A stretch of 64,000 nt of DNA. Origin: Acidimicrobiales bacterium. Its GTDB lineage: Bacteria; Actinomycetota; Acidimicrobiia; Acidimicrobiales; MedAcidi-G1. The notes beneath the pieces were generated by a model that was given only the letters and a program-made list of their open reading frames with translations, made no database searches and had not been told where the DNA came from. Shown piece after piece: positions 33,468 to 37,747 of the stretch. The stretch is from positions 1 to 64,000 of the forward strand of contig JASLKK010000007.1 of NCBI GenBank assembly GCA_030747595.1, given 5' to 3'. Positions within the stretch are counted from its first letter, which is position 1. Each line of letters begins with the position of its first letter. Made by a program: the position numbers and the translations under genes.

Positions 33468-35070
33468 TCAGGCTGACGTGTGAAACAGGCCGTAGACCAA
33501 CGAGTCGACGAGGGCCTGCCAGGACGCCTCGATGATGTTCTCCGACACCCCGATGGTCGTCCAGGTGCGTTCACCGTTGGTGGTGTCGATGAGCACCCGG
33601 GTGACTGCAGCGGTGCCCTCACGGGTCTCCAGTACCCGGACCTTGAAATCGGTCAGGTGCAGGCGGTCCAACTGCGGATGGCGATCGGCTAGCGCTGATC
33701 GGAGTGCGGCATCTAGGGCGTTGACCGGACCGTTGCCCTCTCCGGTGGCCACCATGCGTTCGCCTTCGACATGGACCTTGACGGTGGCCTCGGTCTCGAC
33801 CTCGACAGCCACCTCGTTCCATGCCCGGCTTCCACTCCCCGACCGATGTCCGACGTCGACCGAGAACGACTCCAACTCGAAGAAGCCGTGGGACCAACCG
33901 GCTGCAGCCCGCATGAGCAATTCGAGGGAGGCGTCGGCGGCCTCAAAGTGGTAGCCGGCGTACTCCAACTCCTTGAGGGTCTCGACGATCTCGCCCAGCG
34001 TGTCACCGTCGAGCTCGATGCCCAGCTGGGTCGCCTTCAGTTCAATGGTGGACCTCCCAGACATCTCCGAGACGAGAAACCGGGTGCCGTTGCCGACCAG
34101 TTCGGGATCCACATGCTCGTAGGCGTCGCGGCGCCGGGCAATGGCGCTGGTGTGGAGTCCCGCCTTGTGGGCGAACGCGGTGGCACCCACGTAGGGCTGC
34201 TGGGGGTCGGCGGCGAAGTTCACCAGTTCAGCCACGTGGTGGGCCACCGGGGTGAGTTCGGCGAGCCGGTCGGCGCTGACGGTCTCGACGCCCATCTTGA
34301 GTGTCAGGTTGGCAATGATCGGAACCAGGTCGCAGTTGCCGACCCGTTCGCCATAGCCGTTGATGGTGCCCTGGACGTGGGTGGCACCGCCCGCCACACC
34401 AGCCAGGGCGTTGGCCACGCCACACCCGGTGTCGTTGTGGAGGTGCACGCCAACCGCGCAGTCAACGGCGGCCACCACGTCGCGAACCATGGACTCGATC
34501 CGTCCGGGTAACGAACCGCCGTTGGTGTCACACAGCACGAGGCAGTCGGCACCGGCCTCAGCGGCCCCAAGCAGGACCCGCATCGAGAACTCCGGGTCGT
34601 CGGCGTAGCCGTCGAAGAAGTGCTCGGCATCGAAAAACACCGTCCGCCCGTGGGACTTCAGGTGGCGGACCGAGTCAGCGACCATGGCCACGCCCTCGTC
34701 CAGATCGGTTCGCAGGGCCTCAGTCACGTGGTACGCCGATGCCTTGCCGACAATGCACACGACCTCAGTGCCGGCTTCGAGCAGGTTGATCAACGTGGCG
34801 TCACCGTCGGTCTTACCCCCGACCCGACGCGTGGAACCGAAGGCCACCAGCGTCGAGCGCTGGAGGTCCAGTTCGGTGCGGGCGCGCTCGAAGAACTCGA
34901 CGTCCGTGGGGTTCGCCCGGCCAGCCGCCCTCGATGTAGTGCACGCCGAGCCGGTCCAACTGCTCGGCGATGCGAAGCTTGTCGTCGACGGTCAGCGATA
35001 TGCCCTCGAGTTGAGCGCCGTCTCGCAGCGTGGTGTCATATATCTCGACTGCTTTGGGCAGCGTGGGCAT
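33468..35070 (-). pseudogene. cimA: citramalate synthase CimA, interrupted by a frameshift
   Basis: The two halves together give a complete CimA (2-isopropylmalate synthase-like). CimA condenses pyruvate and acetyl-CoA to citramalate for isoleucine. The 5' part (from ATG 35070, one base after the ilvE stop) holds DTTLRDGAQ and reads to IEGGWPG. The 3' part, in another frame, runs from about 34915 to 33468 and holds the metal motif GVHLHNDTGCG, the catalytic core and the C-terminal regulatory domain. At about 34912-34918 two bases seem missing: relatives read [18 protein letters not shown], which the sequence recovers if a GC is restored. No other stop interrupts either half. It is either a true recent mutation or a sequence error. 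Confidence 0.85.
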
Positions 35071-35071
35071 G

Positions 35072-35992
35072 TCAGGCGCCGACATGCTCGTTCCATTCCG
35101 AGTATTCGGGACGCTCCCCGCGGACTGCCTGGAAGAAGACTTCCTGAATGCGGCTGGTCATCGGACCCGGCGCTCCGATGACCCGATCGTCGACCGAACG
35201 GATAGGCACAACCTCGGCAGCCGTGCCCGACAGGAACGCCTCATCCGCGGTGTAGAGGTCGCTGCGCAGAATGTTCCCCGTGGTGTACGGGATCCCCAGA
35301 TCCTCGGCAATACGACGCACCGCGCTCTGGGTGATGCCCTCGAGTGCCCCGGCACTTGACGGGGGCGTCACGATTCCCCCGTCGCGAACAACGAACAGGT
35401 TCTCACCGGTGCATTCGGACACGTATCCCTGCGGGGATAACAGGATGGCCTCGTCGTAGCCGGCCTTGACCGCCTGAATCTTGGCCATCTGGGAGTTGAT
35501 GTAGTGGCCGACGCCCTTGGCTGCCGGCGGCATTGCGTTCGGGTCGTGGCGCTGCCACGACGAGATCATCATGTCTACGCCGTTGGCCAGGCCGTCGTCG
35601 CCCAGGTAGGTGCCCCACGGCCAGGTGGCGATCGAGACGTCGACCGTGCATGGCAGCGGGTTGAGGCCCATCTCGCCATAGCCGAGGTACACGAGCGGCC
35701 GGATGTAGCACGACTGATGGCCATTGACCCGGACAGTCTCCAGCGTTGCCTCGACCAGTTCGTCGACGGTGTACGGGATCTCCAGGAAGAGGATCTTGGC
35801 GGACCGGAAAAGTCGCTCGATGTGCTCGCGGAGGCGGAACACCGCTGGACCCCTGTCGGTCTCATACGCCCGGATGCCCTCGAACACACCGTTGCCGTAG
35901 TGCAGGGTGTGGGTGAGTACGTGGACCGTGGCATCGTCCCAGTCGACGAGCTCACCGTTCATCCAGATCTTGGACGACTTCTCGATCGGCAT
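35072..35992 (-). CDS. ilvE: branched-chain amino acid aminotransferase
   Basis: IlvE is the PLP-dependent last step of leucine, isoleucine and valine synthesis. The 306-residue protein has [16 protein letters not shown] near the N-terminus, the PLP-lysine region [17 protein letters not shown], and the class-IV signature [10 protein letters not shown]. The ATG at 35992 begins [13 protein letters not shown]. It lies 47 bases after leuB and one base before the cimA start, so leuB-ilvE-cimA forms one operon behind the attenuator at 37075-37163. Confidence 0.96.
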
Positions 35993-36039: not shown

Positions 36040-37020
36040 TCAAGCCAGCAGTCCGGCGATGGCGTCACCGATGGCCACGGTGCCCTCGACGTCGGTGGAC
36101 GGATCGGCACACGCCGCCTCGACACGGGCCGCCGCGTCGGACTCGCCAAGAAAGTCCAGCATCATGGCCCCCGACAGGATGGCCGCCTTCGGGTTGGCGA
36201 TGCCCTTTCCGGCAATGTCAGGGGCCGAACCGTGGACCGGTTCAAACATTGACGGGGATGTGCGATCGGGATTCAGATTGGCCGACGAAGCCAGCCCGAT
36301 GCCGCCCGAGACGGCACCGCCAAGGTCCGTGAGAATGTCGCCGAACAGGTTGTCAGTGACGATCACGTCGTACTGCTGGGGCGACTGCACGAAGTAGATG
36401 CAGGCCGCGTCGACGTGGTTGTAGGCCGTCTCGACGTCGGGGTATTCCTCGGCCACCTCGTTGAAGGTTCGCTCCCACAGGTCGCCGGAGAACGTGAGGA
36501 CGTTGGTCTTGTGGACCAGCGTGAGGTGTCGGCGCCGGGTCATGGCCAGGTCGAACGCGAAGCGGACCGCCCGCTCGACGCCGTGTCGGGTGTTGACCGA
36601 GCCCTGGGTGGCGATCTCGTATGGTGTGCCCTGACGAAGGAAGCCCCCCTCACCGGCGTAGGTCCCTTCGGTGTTCTCACGCACCACGCGGAAGTCGATC
36701 CCCTTGGCTGAGAGCACGAACGGACGGAGGTTGACGTACAGGTCGAGGGAGAACCGCATCTTGAGCAGAAGGCCCCGCTCGATGAGGCCCGGCGGCACCT
36801 CGGGAGTACCCACCGCTCCGAGGTACAGGGCGTCGAGCTGACGCCACTCGTCGAGGATCTCGTCAGGAAGCACGGTGCCGTCACGGCCGTAGCGGGCACC
36901 ACCGAGGTCGTAGTCAACGGTGTCGAGGGCCACGCCGGCGGCCTCGATCACCTTCAGGCCCTCGGCGATGACCTCGGGGCCGATGCCGTCGCCACCGATG
37001 ATGCCGATGCGGTGCGCCAT
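36040..37020 (-). CDS. leuB: 3-isopropylmalate dehydrogenase
   Basis: LeuB oxidatively decarboxylates 3-isopropylmalate for leucine and can also act on methylmalate in the citramalate route to isoleucine. The 326-residue protein has GDGIGPEV near residue 9, [14 protein letters not shown], and the dehydrogenase signature [13 protein letters not shown]. An ATG at 37020 preceded by GGAG/AGGAG was chosen over a TTG at 37029, which would overlap the ribosome site. The operon partner genes and the isoleucine-rich leader point to control by isoleucine or valine supply. Confidence 0.95.
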
Positions 37021-37074
37021 GGTCTCCAACTCCTACGGAATTCTTGGGATGTATCGGGAAGCGGGCAGGGAACT

Positions 37075-37100
37075 AAAAAACCGCCCACCAAGGTGGACGG
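37075..37100 (-). terminator. attenuator terminator upstream of leuB
   Basis: On the minus strand CCGTCCAC and GTGGGCGG pair around a CTTG tetraloop (37081-37100) with one G-U, and six T residues follow directly (37075-37080). This is a textbook intrinsic terminator. It lies 55 bases before the leuB start, inside the leader, so it can act only as a conditional stop. Confidence 0.85.
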
Positions 37101-37105
37101 TCAGG

Positions 37106-37128
37106 GCGCACACCAGAGCGGTGTGCGC
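37106..37128 (-). promoter_or_regulatory. leader hairpin preceding the attenuator
   Basis: GCGCACACC and GGTGTGCGC are perfect 9-bp arms around a 5-base loop. The 5' arm begins at the last base of the leader-peptide stop codon, so a terminating ribosome would cover it. Seven of eight bases of this arm (CGCACACC) can also pair with the 3' arm of the terminator (GGTGGGCG), a possible antiterminator. How the forms are switched is not certain. Confidence 0.7.
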
Positions 37129-37163
37129 TAACGAATGATGATTACCCGGGGTCGATCGTTCAC
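37128..37163 (-). CDS. Ile/Val-rich leader peptide of the leuB operon
   Basis: A GTG at 37163 opens an 11-codon frame ending in TAG: M-N-D-R-P-R-V-I-I-I-R. It holds one Val and three consecutive Ile codons directly before the hairpin and terminator, the classic arrangement of a ribosome-mediated attenuator. An in-frame GTG at 37169 would add two residues. No ribosome-binding site precedes it, but a -10-like box ends about eight bases upstream, so the transcript may be leaderless. Confidence 0.75.
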   Translation of the reverse strand: MNDRPRVIIIR

Positions 37164-37170
37164 GGCCACA

Positions 37171-37201
37171 AGTGTACCGCTCCGGTGTCGCAGCAGGTCA
37201 A
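37171..37201 (-). promoter_or_regulatory. promoter of the leuB leader
   Basis: On the minus strand TTGACC (37196-37201) and TACACT (37171-37176) resemble -35 and -10 boxes with a 19-base spacer, slightly long. The predicted start point falls at or next to the GTG of the leader peptide. The divergent greA gene starts 73 bases away on the other strand. Confidence 0.55.
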
Positions 37202-37273
37202 ACGGGTATCGCCGGAGAAAGCCGTCCTAGAGATCGCCACTAGTGTTCGCGTCCCCGTGGCTACCCTCGTGGG

Positions 37274-37747
37274 ATGGCCGATGCGCACCAGCTTTCCCAG
37301 GAGACCTACGACCGGCTCGCCGCCGAGTTCGAGGACCTCACCACACGCGGGCGGATTGACATCGCCCGCAAGATCGAAACGGCCCGCGAGCTCGGCGACC
37401 TCTCTGAGAACGGCGACTACCACGCCGCCAAGGAGGAGCAGGGAAAGATGGAGGGCCGGATTCTCCATCTCGAGAGCATCCTCGAGAAGGCCGAGATCGT
37501 CGAACTTTCGACTGGCAGCGTCGACGTGGTGGCCCCGGGCACCATCGTGGCCGTCGTCTACGAGGGTGACGACGAGCCCGAGCGAATGCTCGTCGGATCG
37601 ATCGAGGAGCAGCGCGACGACGTGCTCGTTGTCTCACCGGGGTCTCCGCTGGGTGCTGCCCTGCTGGGCTCAGCGGTGGGCGACACCGTCTCGTTCGAGG
37701 CACCGGGCGGCATGTTGGCCGTCAAGGTCGTCGCCATCGAGCGATGA
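37274..37747 (+). CDS. greA: transcription elongation factor GreA
   Basis: GreA reactivates backtracked RNA polymerase by stimulating transcript cleavage. The 157-residue protein has the N-terminal coiled coil with the acidic tip GDLSENGDYHAAKEEQ and a C-terminal FKBP-like domain containing DTVSFEAPGG. The ATG at 37274 gives the standard N-terminus. Its stop overlaps the start of the hydrolase gene (ATGA). Confidence 0.96.
   Translation: MADAHQLSQETYDRLAAEFEDLTTRGRIDIARKIETARELGDLSENGDYHAAKEEQGKMEGRILHLESILEKAEIVELSTGSVDVVAPGTIVAVVYEGDDEPERMLVGSIEEQRDDVLVVSPGSPLGAALLGSAVGDTVSFEAPGGMLAVKVVAIER

Follow-up and report, generated by a model that had tools for sequence, protein, structure and literature searches.

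The stretch of DNA analysed here, in the following called the window, comprises 64,000 nucleotides (nt) of contig JASLKK010000007.1 from an Acidimicrobiales bacterium (assembly GCA_030747595.1). On its minus strand a short leader open reading frame (ORF) and two adjoining hairpins precede the operon leuB-ilvE-cimA, and this element is very probably an amino acid-sensing attenuator. Based on sequence comparison it belongs to a large family in Acidimicrobiia, the members of which precede genes of every branched-chain route, namely leuA, ilvB, cimA and leuB-ilvE-cimA. The complete reading, a ribosome-mediated attenuator with a leaderless leader that responds to isoleucine (and valine) and controls leuB-ilvE-cimA by hairpin proximity, falls just short of an even chance, since it is bounded by its least certain step.

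Anatomy of the leader

The element consists of the following features.

37196-37201, minus strand: -35-like hexamer TTGACC, 19 nt upstream of the -10-like hexamer, read from the sequence
37171-37176, minus strand: -10-like hexamer TACACT, ending 7 nt ahead of the leader GTG
37128-37163, minus strand: leader ORF from GTG to TAG, MNDRPRVIIIR*, 11 codons, predicted to be leaderless
37134-37145, minus strand: regulatory codons GTA ATC ATC ATT (V-I-I-I), positions -5 to -2 relative to the stop codon
37106-37128, minus strand: H1, a perfect 9-bp hairpin with the arms 37128-37120 and 37114-37106
37103-37105, minus strand: linker of 3 nt between H1 and the terminator
37075-37102, minus strand: intrinsic terminator with a 10-bp stem and tetraloop (37102-37079) and a T6 tract (37080-37075)

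A GTG-started leader of 11 codons with V-I-I-I near its end, followed by a perfect 9-bp hairpin and a tetraloop terminator with a T6 tract ahead of leuB, had been described in a previous sequence-only reading of the window, and all of these parts are present. The leader starts with the GTG at 37163, stops with the TAG at 37130-37128 and encodes a peptide ending in V-I-I-I-R. The arms of H1, GCGCACACC and GGTGTGCGC, form 9 perfect pairs, and the 5'-most base of H1 (G) is at the same time the third base of the leader stop codon.

A scan of positions 36900-37400 detected two terminator-like matches, which overlap and both represent the same hairpin, compared to a mean of 0.2 in shuffled sequences. 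For the segment that spans stop codon and T tract, the fold of minimum energy consists of the two hairpins (-34.1 kcal/mol). The fold energy of longer stretches is modestly unusual, being matched by 5 of 200 shuffles for a 134-nt stretch and by 37 of 200 for a 210-nt stretch, and folding energy alone is weak evidence for the element.

Occurrence of the element in related genomes

A LeuB search of 61 genomes (the source genome and 60 relatives) gave a match in all of them, which in five (G003, G019, G022, G030 and G034) was a distant relative only, plus a 36-residue piece in G030. Among the 56 upstream regions examined, 47 carry an element at most 330 nt from the leuB start. The covariance model R1 was built from an alignment (A1) of 44 of these 47 elements, which includes the source-genome element and omits the atypical L048, L054 and L055. 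R1 scores the window element with 91.5 bits, and the one other match in the source genome, with an E value of 1.62, arises from this terminator read on the opposite strand.

Within the class, 230 of 395 genomes have an R1 match. Of 396 genomes sampled across the phylum 37 have one, 24 of which belong to the same class and 13 elsewhere. Ten of the 13 out-of-class matches, listed as L136 to L145 and L153, have leaders rich in codons for branched-chain amino acids (BCAA). For L137 and L139 to L142 the distance to the ilvB gene downstream is about 350-535 nt, L144 and L153 are situated close before ilvB, L143 precedes leuA and L145 precedes leuB; downstream of L136 and L138 none of the four target genes is located within the stretch read. 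The out-of-class matches L151, L152 and L154 look like chance and were rejected. L145, from another class of the phylum, combines leuB with a V-V-I-I-R* leader and, further downstream in the same orientation, a cimA-like gene, and the leuB/cimA arrangement may thus predate the class.

Furthermore, R1 detected the element in 50 of 80 named loci found by LeuB, 34 directly before leuB and 16 before cimA, the latter 51-98 nt ahead of the cimA coding start; 13 of the 50 were already in the working set, leaving 37 further elements. The closest LeuB among the 80 named records, with 98% identity, is that of an Acidimicrobiales metagenome-assembled genome (MAG).

The element often stands at cimA where leuB is without one. 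No element was found within 330 nt of leuB in 9 of the 56 loci read. Three of these genomes carry one ahead of cimA: before the gene in G040 (L044), 46 nt before it in G042 (L147, with the leader F-I-I-I-P*) and about 1 kb before it in G026. In G052, G053, G054, G057 and G060 R1 matches only near ilvB (very weakly in G057), and G017 gave no match with it. At L031 and L032, which belong to the AT-rich genus g3 of the same family, the leuB element is missing and the ilvB and leuA leaders are kept; in one of the two genomes R1 matches a site some 1 kb ahead of cimA.

According to a search against Rfam (4227 families) the window yields only a tRNA at the gathering threshold, the tRNA gene at 425-498 on the minus strand being the sole match. 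Twelve ilvB and leuA loci gave no Rfam match over the elements, and a permissive scan of 8 loci gave matches over them that were well below gathering.

Leader codons and target genes

The codon table comprises 178 elements, 70 of the leuB form, 25 before cimA, 53 before ilvB and 30 before leuA, including two ilvB elements and one leuA element from outside the class. Upstream regions were read in 42 of 57 genomes for ilvB and in 30 of 45, plus the source genome, for leuA. Five near-identical elements were dropped (153 to 148), and so were L146 and L148, which are copies of L169 and L158, as well as L220 (leuA, contig end) and L183 (ilvB, no leader found); L136 to L142, L145, L147, L150 to L152 and L154 stand outside the table. 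With the genes identified by protein homology alone, the ilvB upstream regions yielded a leader in 41 of 42 cases (that of L159 recognised by eye, none at L183) and the leuA upstream regions in 29 of 30, L220 being cut by the contig end. The ilvB leaders were chosen as stop codons with at least three BCAA codons in the preceding six and the leuA leaders by their Leu content.

Ile, Val or Leu is encoded at positions -7 to -1 in 35, 36, 151, 154, 161, 167 and 18 of the 178 leaders, compared to a background fraction of 0.23 in the leuB and ilvB genes. The sensing codons thus occupy -5 to -2, and position -1 is avoided (below background). Neither the depletion at -1 nor the background level seen at -6 was selected for when the leaders were chosen, except that positions -5 to -2 were fixed for the final leuA table; in an earlier leuA pass they were not fixed.

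The encoded amino acids follow the target gene. The leuA leaders encode Leu at -5 to -2 in 20, 28, 30 and 30 of 30 cases, followed at -1 by Thr (22) or Met (8), and those of cimA encode Ile at -4 to -2 in 25, 23 and 25 of 25. Ahead of leuB-ilvE-cimA, Val is found at -5 in 57 of 70 leaders and Ile at -4 to -2 in 49, 34 and 67. Finally, among the 53 ilvB leaders Val or Leu fills positions -5, -4, -3 and -2 in 41, 42, 50 and 35 cases, and Ile in 4, 0, 1 and 10. In the further elements from the named records, all 15 cimA-adjacent leaders have Ile in each of the four sensing positions. The 22 leuB leaders all have Ile at -2, but only 11 of them have Ile, Val or Leu at -3. Position -1 encodes Ile, Val or Leu in 3 of all 37, and every one of the 37 stop codons is TAG. 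One out-of-class genome has LLL-T* ahead of a leuA-like gene.

The source genome itself holds three matched forms, VIII-R* (leuB), VVVL-P* (ilvB) and LLLL-T* (leuA). The sister elements lie on G000:C1, that of ilvB (L186/L244) at about position 135.1 kb and that of leuA (L243) at about position 186.6 kb. His was the only other amino acid searched for, and a pattern of four His codons before TAG gave 2 matches in 41 genomes and none in the source genome, compared to 11 for the backward control.

The leader stop is UAG in 164 of 178 elements, compared to 23 of 116 leuB and ilvB genes. TAA or TGA is used in the other 14 (e.g. L162), and these could serve as natural variants for testing what the stop codon contributes. 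Of the 197 Val codons within the sensing positions, 122 are the rare GTA, compared to 4.7% in genes (148 elements, leuA excluded). Pro or Thr occupies -1 in 24 of 70 leuB-form and 31 of 53 ilvB leaders.

Taken together, the codon pattern strongly indicates that the leader is translated and that its four sensing codons stand at the fixed positions -5 to -2. The proposal that the Ile codons match an operon ending in cimA agrees with the 16 loci at which the element directly precedes cimA and with codons that track the target gene, and the leader frame proved to be conserved in relatives. Of the interpretation originally suggested, the conserved leader with Ile codons and the intrinsic terminator in front of an Ile-route operon are supported. 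In the leuB form, however, Val usually stands at -5, and the element of the window may therefore respond to valine as well as to isoleucine.

Predicted start site of the leader

The start was analysed in 110 of 148 elements (leuA excluded), which have a single possible start codon 9-19 codons upstream. In 95 of the 110 the end of a NANNNT hexamer is found 5-9 nt upstream of the leader start codon, compared to 14, 12 and 5 in three windows further upstream, and the stricter TANNNT in 34, compared to 3, 2 and 0 in the same control windows. A Shine-Dalgarno-like tetramer precedes only 8 of 110 leader starts, compared to 47 of 56 leuB starts. The transcript is therefore predicted to start at or beside the leader GTG, and the leaders are probably leaderless, because their start codon lies just past a -10-like site and has no Shine-Dalgarno sequence. 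A scan with the sigma-70 consensus, limited to spacers of 16-18, did not find a promoter at the leader; a TTGACC/TACACT-like pair is visible by eye in many close relatives.

RNA structure and covariation

The compensatory changes that had been proposed as a check were found in an alignment (A2) of 59 distinct sequences of the class fitted to R1. It contains 98.8% standard pair cells and 117 compensatory cells, compared to 32.9 in shuffles and at most 11 with slid partners. An alignment of the leuB form that was not fitted to the model has 19 compensatory cells compared to 5.7, and most of the lower pairs of H1 and of the terminator are nearly invariant in it.

All 177 scorable elements (L159 could not be scored for geometry) fold as two outer stem-loop domains between stop codon and U tract, some of the H1s being branched inside. 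The 5' base of H1 belongs to the stop codon in 167 of these 177 elements, and H1 is joined to the terminator by a linker of 0-4 nt in 174 and of 0-2 nt in 112 of them. These elements were picked by the structure model or by their leader codons, so that the geometry describes the family and is no unbiased test. The comparative data strongly indicate that both H1 and the terminator form.

Two details of the structures were noted in passing. At column 58 of A1, in terminator arm 3, the 42 distinct leuB-form sequences have a U, paired with G in 36 and with A in 6 of them, and never a C; a C-G pair would be stronger, and the wider set has one there in 19 of its 59 rows. Among the leuA elements L198-L227 many H1 loops resemble CACATA next to CGCG and appear by eye more alike than a free loop should be.

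An ordinary terminator that happens to follow a random short ORF might account for the only modestly unusual fold energy of the longer stretches. Its probability is negligible, and it counts as already refuted by the conservation, the covariation and the matching of codons to genes. Furthermore, the terminator ends no upstream unit, because the nearest upstream gene (37274-37747) lies on the opposite strand.

Tests of base-pair exchange

With arms 1 and 2 forming H1 and arms 3 and 4 the terminator, alternative pairings were compared to stem permutations in 92 elements and to swapped partners in the leuB, cimA and ilvB classes, for which 1:2 and 3:4 served as positive controls. The sequence-only reading had noted that the 5' arm of H1 can pair with the 3' arm of the terminator in 7 of 8 bases. 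This 1:4 pairing exists in the window element (L001), but it does not exceed chance, as 37% of the permuted controls are as good or better. Over the 92 elements the mean permutation ranks are 0.51 for 1:4 and 0.69 for 2:3, and the 1:3 and 2:4 duplexes (0.75 and 0.54) are no better than permuted ones. When compared to swapped partners, 2:3 gave p values of 1, 0.63 and 0.66 in the leuB, cimA and ilvB classes, and 1:2 and 3:4 passed at p<1e-4. In the leuB class 1:4 reached a rank p of 0.002, yet its mean is weaker than that of swapped partners (-8.13 compared to -8.15), and it was not counted. Both the 1:4 pairing and the classical 2:3 antiterminator were consequently rejected as conserved switches. 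The switching scheme, which the sequence-only reading had itself called uncertain, is thus not supported as an exchange of pairs and calls for a different explanation.

The predicted pairing of the terminator has a median of 0.98 if all bases are free, if the stop codon and 6 nt are masked and if arm 1 is masked, and it exceeds 0.8 in 177, 170 and 175 of 177 elements, respectively.

These results bear on a classical trp-type scheme, in which the stalled ribosome would mask arm 1, the 2:3 antiterminator would form and block the 3:4 terminator, and H1 would act as protector. The general layout, with a leader, two hairpins and a U tract, would fit, and arms 2 and 3 of the window element can by eye pair at 7 of 8 positions, including one G-U. 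However, beside the failure of 2:3 against swapped partners in the leuB, cimA and ilvB classes, the best fold of the H1 loop with arm 3 is far weaker than the terminator (class medians of -2.7 to -4.0 compared to -16.4 to -17.3 kcal/mol), the 0-2 nt between the hairpins in most elements leave no legal loop for a full 2:3 hairpin, the 2:3 duplex has about 0 kcal/mol in several elements (L097, L104, L111 and L119), and a ribosome at the first stall, -5, would fall short of arm 1. The trp-type scheme therefore seems improbable, and according to these models base-pair exchange fails to explain the family as a whole.

Proposed mechanism

The codons make it almost certain that the position of a ribosome is read out, H1 is the structure that would depend on the ribosome, and no pairing switch was found, so that H1 should affect the terminator in another way. 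We propose that it hinders terminator closure, because the 5' flank of the terminator must run back through the exit channel of the RNA polymerase and 0-4 nt would be too short for this with H1 folded.

The first ribosome would load at the 5' end of the transcript. If Ile-tRNA is scarce, it would stall with one of the codons -5 to -2 in its A site, at least about 5 nt before H1, and H1 could fold. With codon -2 in the A site the distance to H1 is 5 nt (codon -1 and two bases of the stop codon), and about 5 nt is the shortest spacer in front of an intact helix ahead of the ribosome, as known from frameshifting signals. At termination the lowest terminator pairs lie within the exit channel, and with a folded H1 at 0-4 nt from the terminator base they could not close, resulting in readthrough. 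If isoleucine is plentiful, the ribosome would reach the UAG, where its downstream footprint would cover about the whole 5' arm of H1 and unfold the hairpin; the 5' flank of the terminator would then be single-stranded, the terminator would close and transcription would stop. Antitermination would thus be achieved by hairpin proximity rather than by base-pair exchange. A slow stop would help, and UAG is strongly preferred and Pro or Thr common at -1, which would slow release.

The spacing between ribosome and H1 would explain both the location of the sensing codons at -5 to -2 and the avoidance of -1. The compact run of four codons fits modelling in which sensitivity falls with fewer regulatory codons in the control region (PMC1183508). 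For the proximity step, the blocking of terminator closure by H1, we assume a probability marginally below even.

Several points weigh against the proposed mechanism or the evidence on which it is built. The proximity step is derived from the geometry and from the exclusion of pairing. The codon enrichment is partly built in, due to the codon-guided choice of the ilvB and leuA leaders and the codon columns included in R1, and the p-values are too small, because related sequences are not independent. The predicted terminator pairing drops below 0.8 in 2 of 177 elements (L127 and L098) when arm 1 is masked and in 7 of 177 when the stop codon and 6 nt are masked; a cruder U-tract rule with arm 1 masked gave minima of 0.016 in the leuB class and 0.23 in the cimA class, with similar medians. 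The best-conserved codon of the leuB form, -2, is the one nearest to H1, and a ribosome stalled there may touch the base of H1. Finally, tandem hairpins after the Mycobacterium smegmatis gyrA gene reportedly terminate better than a single one (cited in PMC8355165).

The last two points would suit the opposite role, in which H1 strengthens termination as part of a tandem terminator or as a pause hairpin and a ribosome stalled at -2 disturbs its base and lowers termination. Indeed no sensing codon of the leuB form is better conserved than -2, termination can be increased by hairpins in tandem (PMC8355165), and a pause site is described to synchronise ribosome and polymerase in the trp and his attenuators (PMC1183508). 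However, a first stall at -5 would leave H1 untouched, so that transcription would terminate under severe starvation, and -1, the position most disturbing to H1, is avoided. This role of H1 appears unlikely.

The leader might also sense amino acids by another route, through a trans-acting short RNA or peptide or through the coupling of transcription and translation, with a mostly constitutive terminator. Leader peptide and RNA of the Sinorhizobium meliloti trp operon were reported to act in trans (PMC7298713). Throughout the family, however, stop codon, H1 and terminator are tightly fused, which suggests that they act locally in cis, and another route seems very improbable.

Returning to hairpin proximity, its extension to the complete family is put forward tentatively, at somewhat less than even probability: a BCAA regulon run by leaderless attenuators that can do without an antiterminator helix, in which H1, fused to both the stop codon and the terminator, sterically blocks terminator closure at the RNA exit channel, the terminating ribosome removes H1, and the register of four codons up to -2 is set by the spacing between ribosome and hairpin.

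Comparison with known attenuators

The classical trp and his attenuators of enterobacteria share with the element the end-product codons in a leader ORF, the intrinsic terminator and the operon of the same pathway. In contrast to them, the family has no competing antiterminator helix above controls, its H1 starts at the stop codon and is fused to the terminator, and its leader is probably leaderless. We do not file it as a classical member, yet it very likely works in the same spirit. Since leader, terminator and pathway correspond to those of the classical type and the antiterminator does not, it is rated as a new variant of ribosome-mediated attenuation.

A search of the literature on Acidimicrobiia attenuators, citramalate synthase leaders and leuA leaders, with most subscription journals outside its coverage, gave no report of the family; the one paper retrieved on citramalate synthase and leader attenuation deals with valine overproduction in Methanothermobacter.

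The ilvB1 gene of Mycobacterium tuberculosis is described with an upstream ORF (uORF) of BCAA codons, and a ribosome at its stop is proposed to prevent an anti-terminator that a stalled ribosome allows (PMC13236596). This proposed logic is shared with the family. According to the same description ilvB1 differs in its mutually exclusive terminator and anti-terminator folds within a 166-nt leader, whereas the hairpins do not overlap here.

BCAA-rich uORFs ahead of ilvB are also described for the Corynebacterium ilvB-II, the ilvB-OMG and the Leptospira ilvB motifs (PMC10272879), among which ilvB-II and Leptospira ilvB are given as uORF attenuators of other hosts and ilvB-OMG with 41 members from various phyla. 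As in the family, ilvB-II has two stem-loops, the second being the terminator. In the description of ilvB-II, however, the uORF spans most of the first stem-loop (P1), the loop of which can pair with the terminator shoulder (PMC10272879); the uORF of our family ends at the base of H1 in 167 of 177 elements, and a loop pairing is covered only by the fold of the H1 loop with arm 3. The ilvB-OMG motif, compared by its description only, could overlap the ilvB members found here.

To our knowledge, no Acidimicrobiia are among the genomes of Seliverstov et al. Their study covers ilvB leaders, the LEU element of leuA and others in about 20 actinobacterial genomes (PMC1262725). The LEU element resembles the leuA members in having a leader peptide with a Leu run ahead of leuA in Actinobacteria. 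It is described with a pseudoknot and a base stem at the leuA Shine-Dalgarno sequence and without a terminator (PMC1262725), whereas the leuA elements here fold as H1 and a terminator-like hairpin in 30 of 30 cases; they are set apart by this description of LEU, and a pseudoknot was not searched for.

Leaderless leader peptides, a geometry that the family would share, are described for trpL of S. meliloti, there together with mutually exclusive structures (PMC7298713), and are cited for the mycobacterial polycysteine short ORFs, which serve cysteine genes.

For a class of mostly uncultured bacteria the family provides amino acid control that is readable from the sequence, as the codons would show to which amino acid an operon responds. 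Together, the register of -5 to -2, the UAG and the fused hairpins would form a compact ruler for ribosome position and terminator closure. If the proximity model is true, attenuation is possible without base-pair exchange, and searches that demand an antiterminator would miss such attenuators.

The operon and its neighbourhood

The structural genes downstream of the terminator are listed below; the names are those of the sequence-only reading.

36040-37020, minus strand: leuB, first structural gene, with the Shine-Dalgarno sequence AGGAG at 37034-37030 and the ATG at 37020
35072-35992, minus strand: ilvE, branched-chain aminotransferase
33468-35070, minus strand: cimA, citramalate synthase, with the frame interrupted near 34.9 kb

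The ATG of leuB lies 54 nt past the T tract, and the name of the gene fits the known features of the protein. The cimA frame near 34.9 kb comprises 74 codons from DTTLRDG to a stop codon, compared to intact frames of 523 codons in four congeners; it may be interrupted by an assembly error or by a real lesion.

Among the records collected by the LeuB search, several are titled Bifidobacterium breve (L257, L271, L278, L314 and L321). Their leuB is 73-78% identical to the Acidimicrobiales-like one, and the MAG labels of these records are probably wrong.

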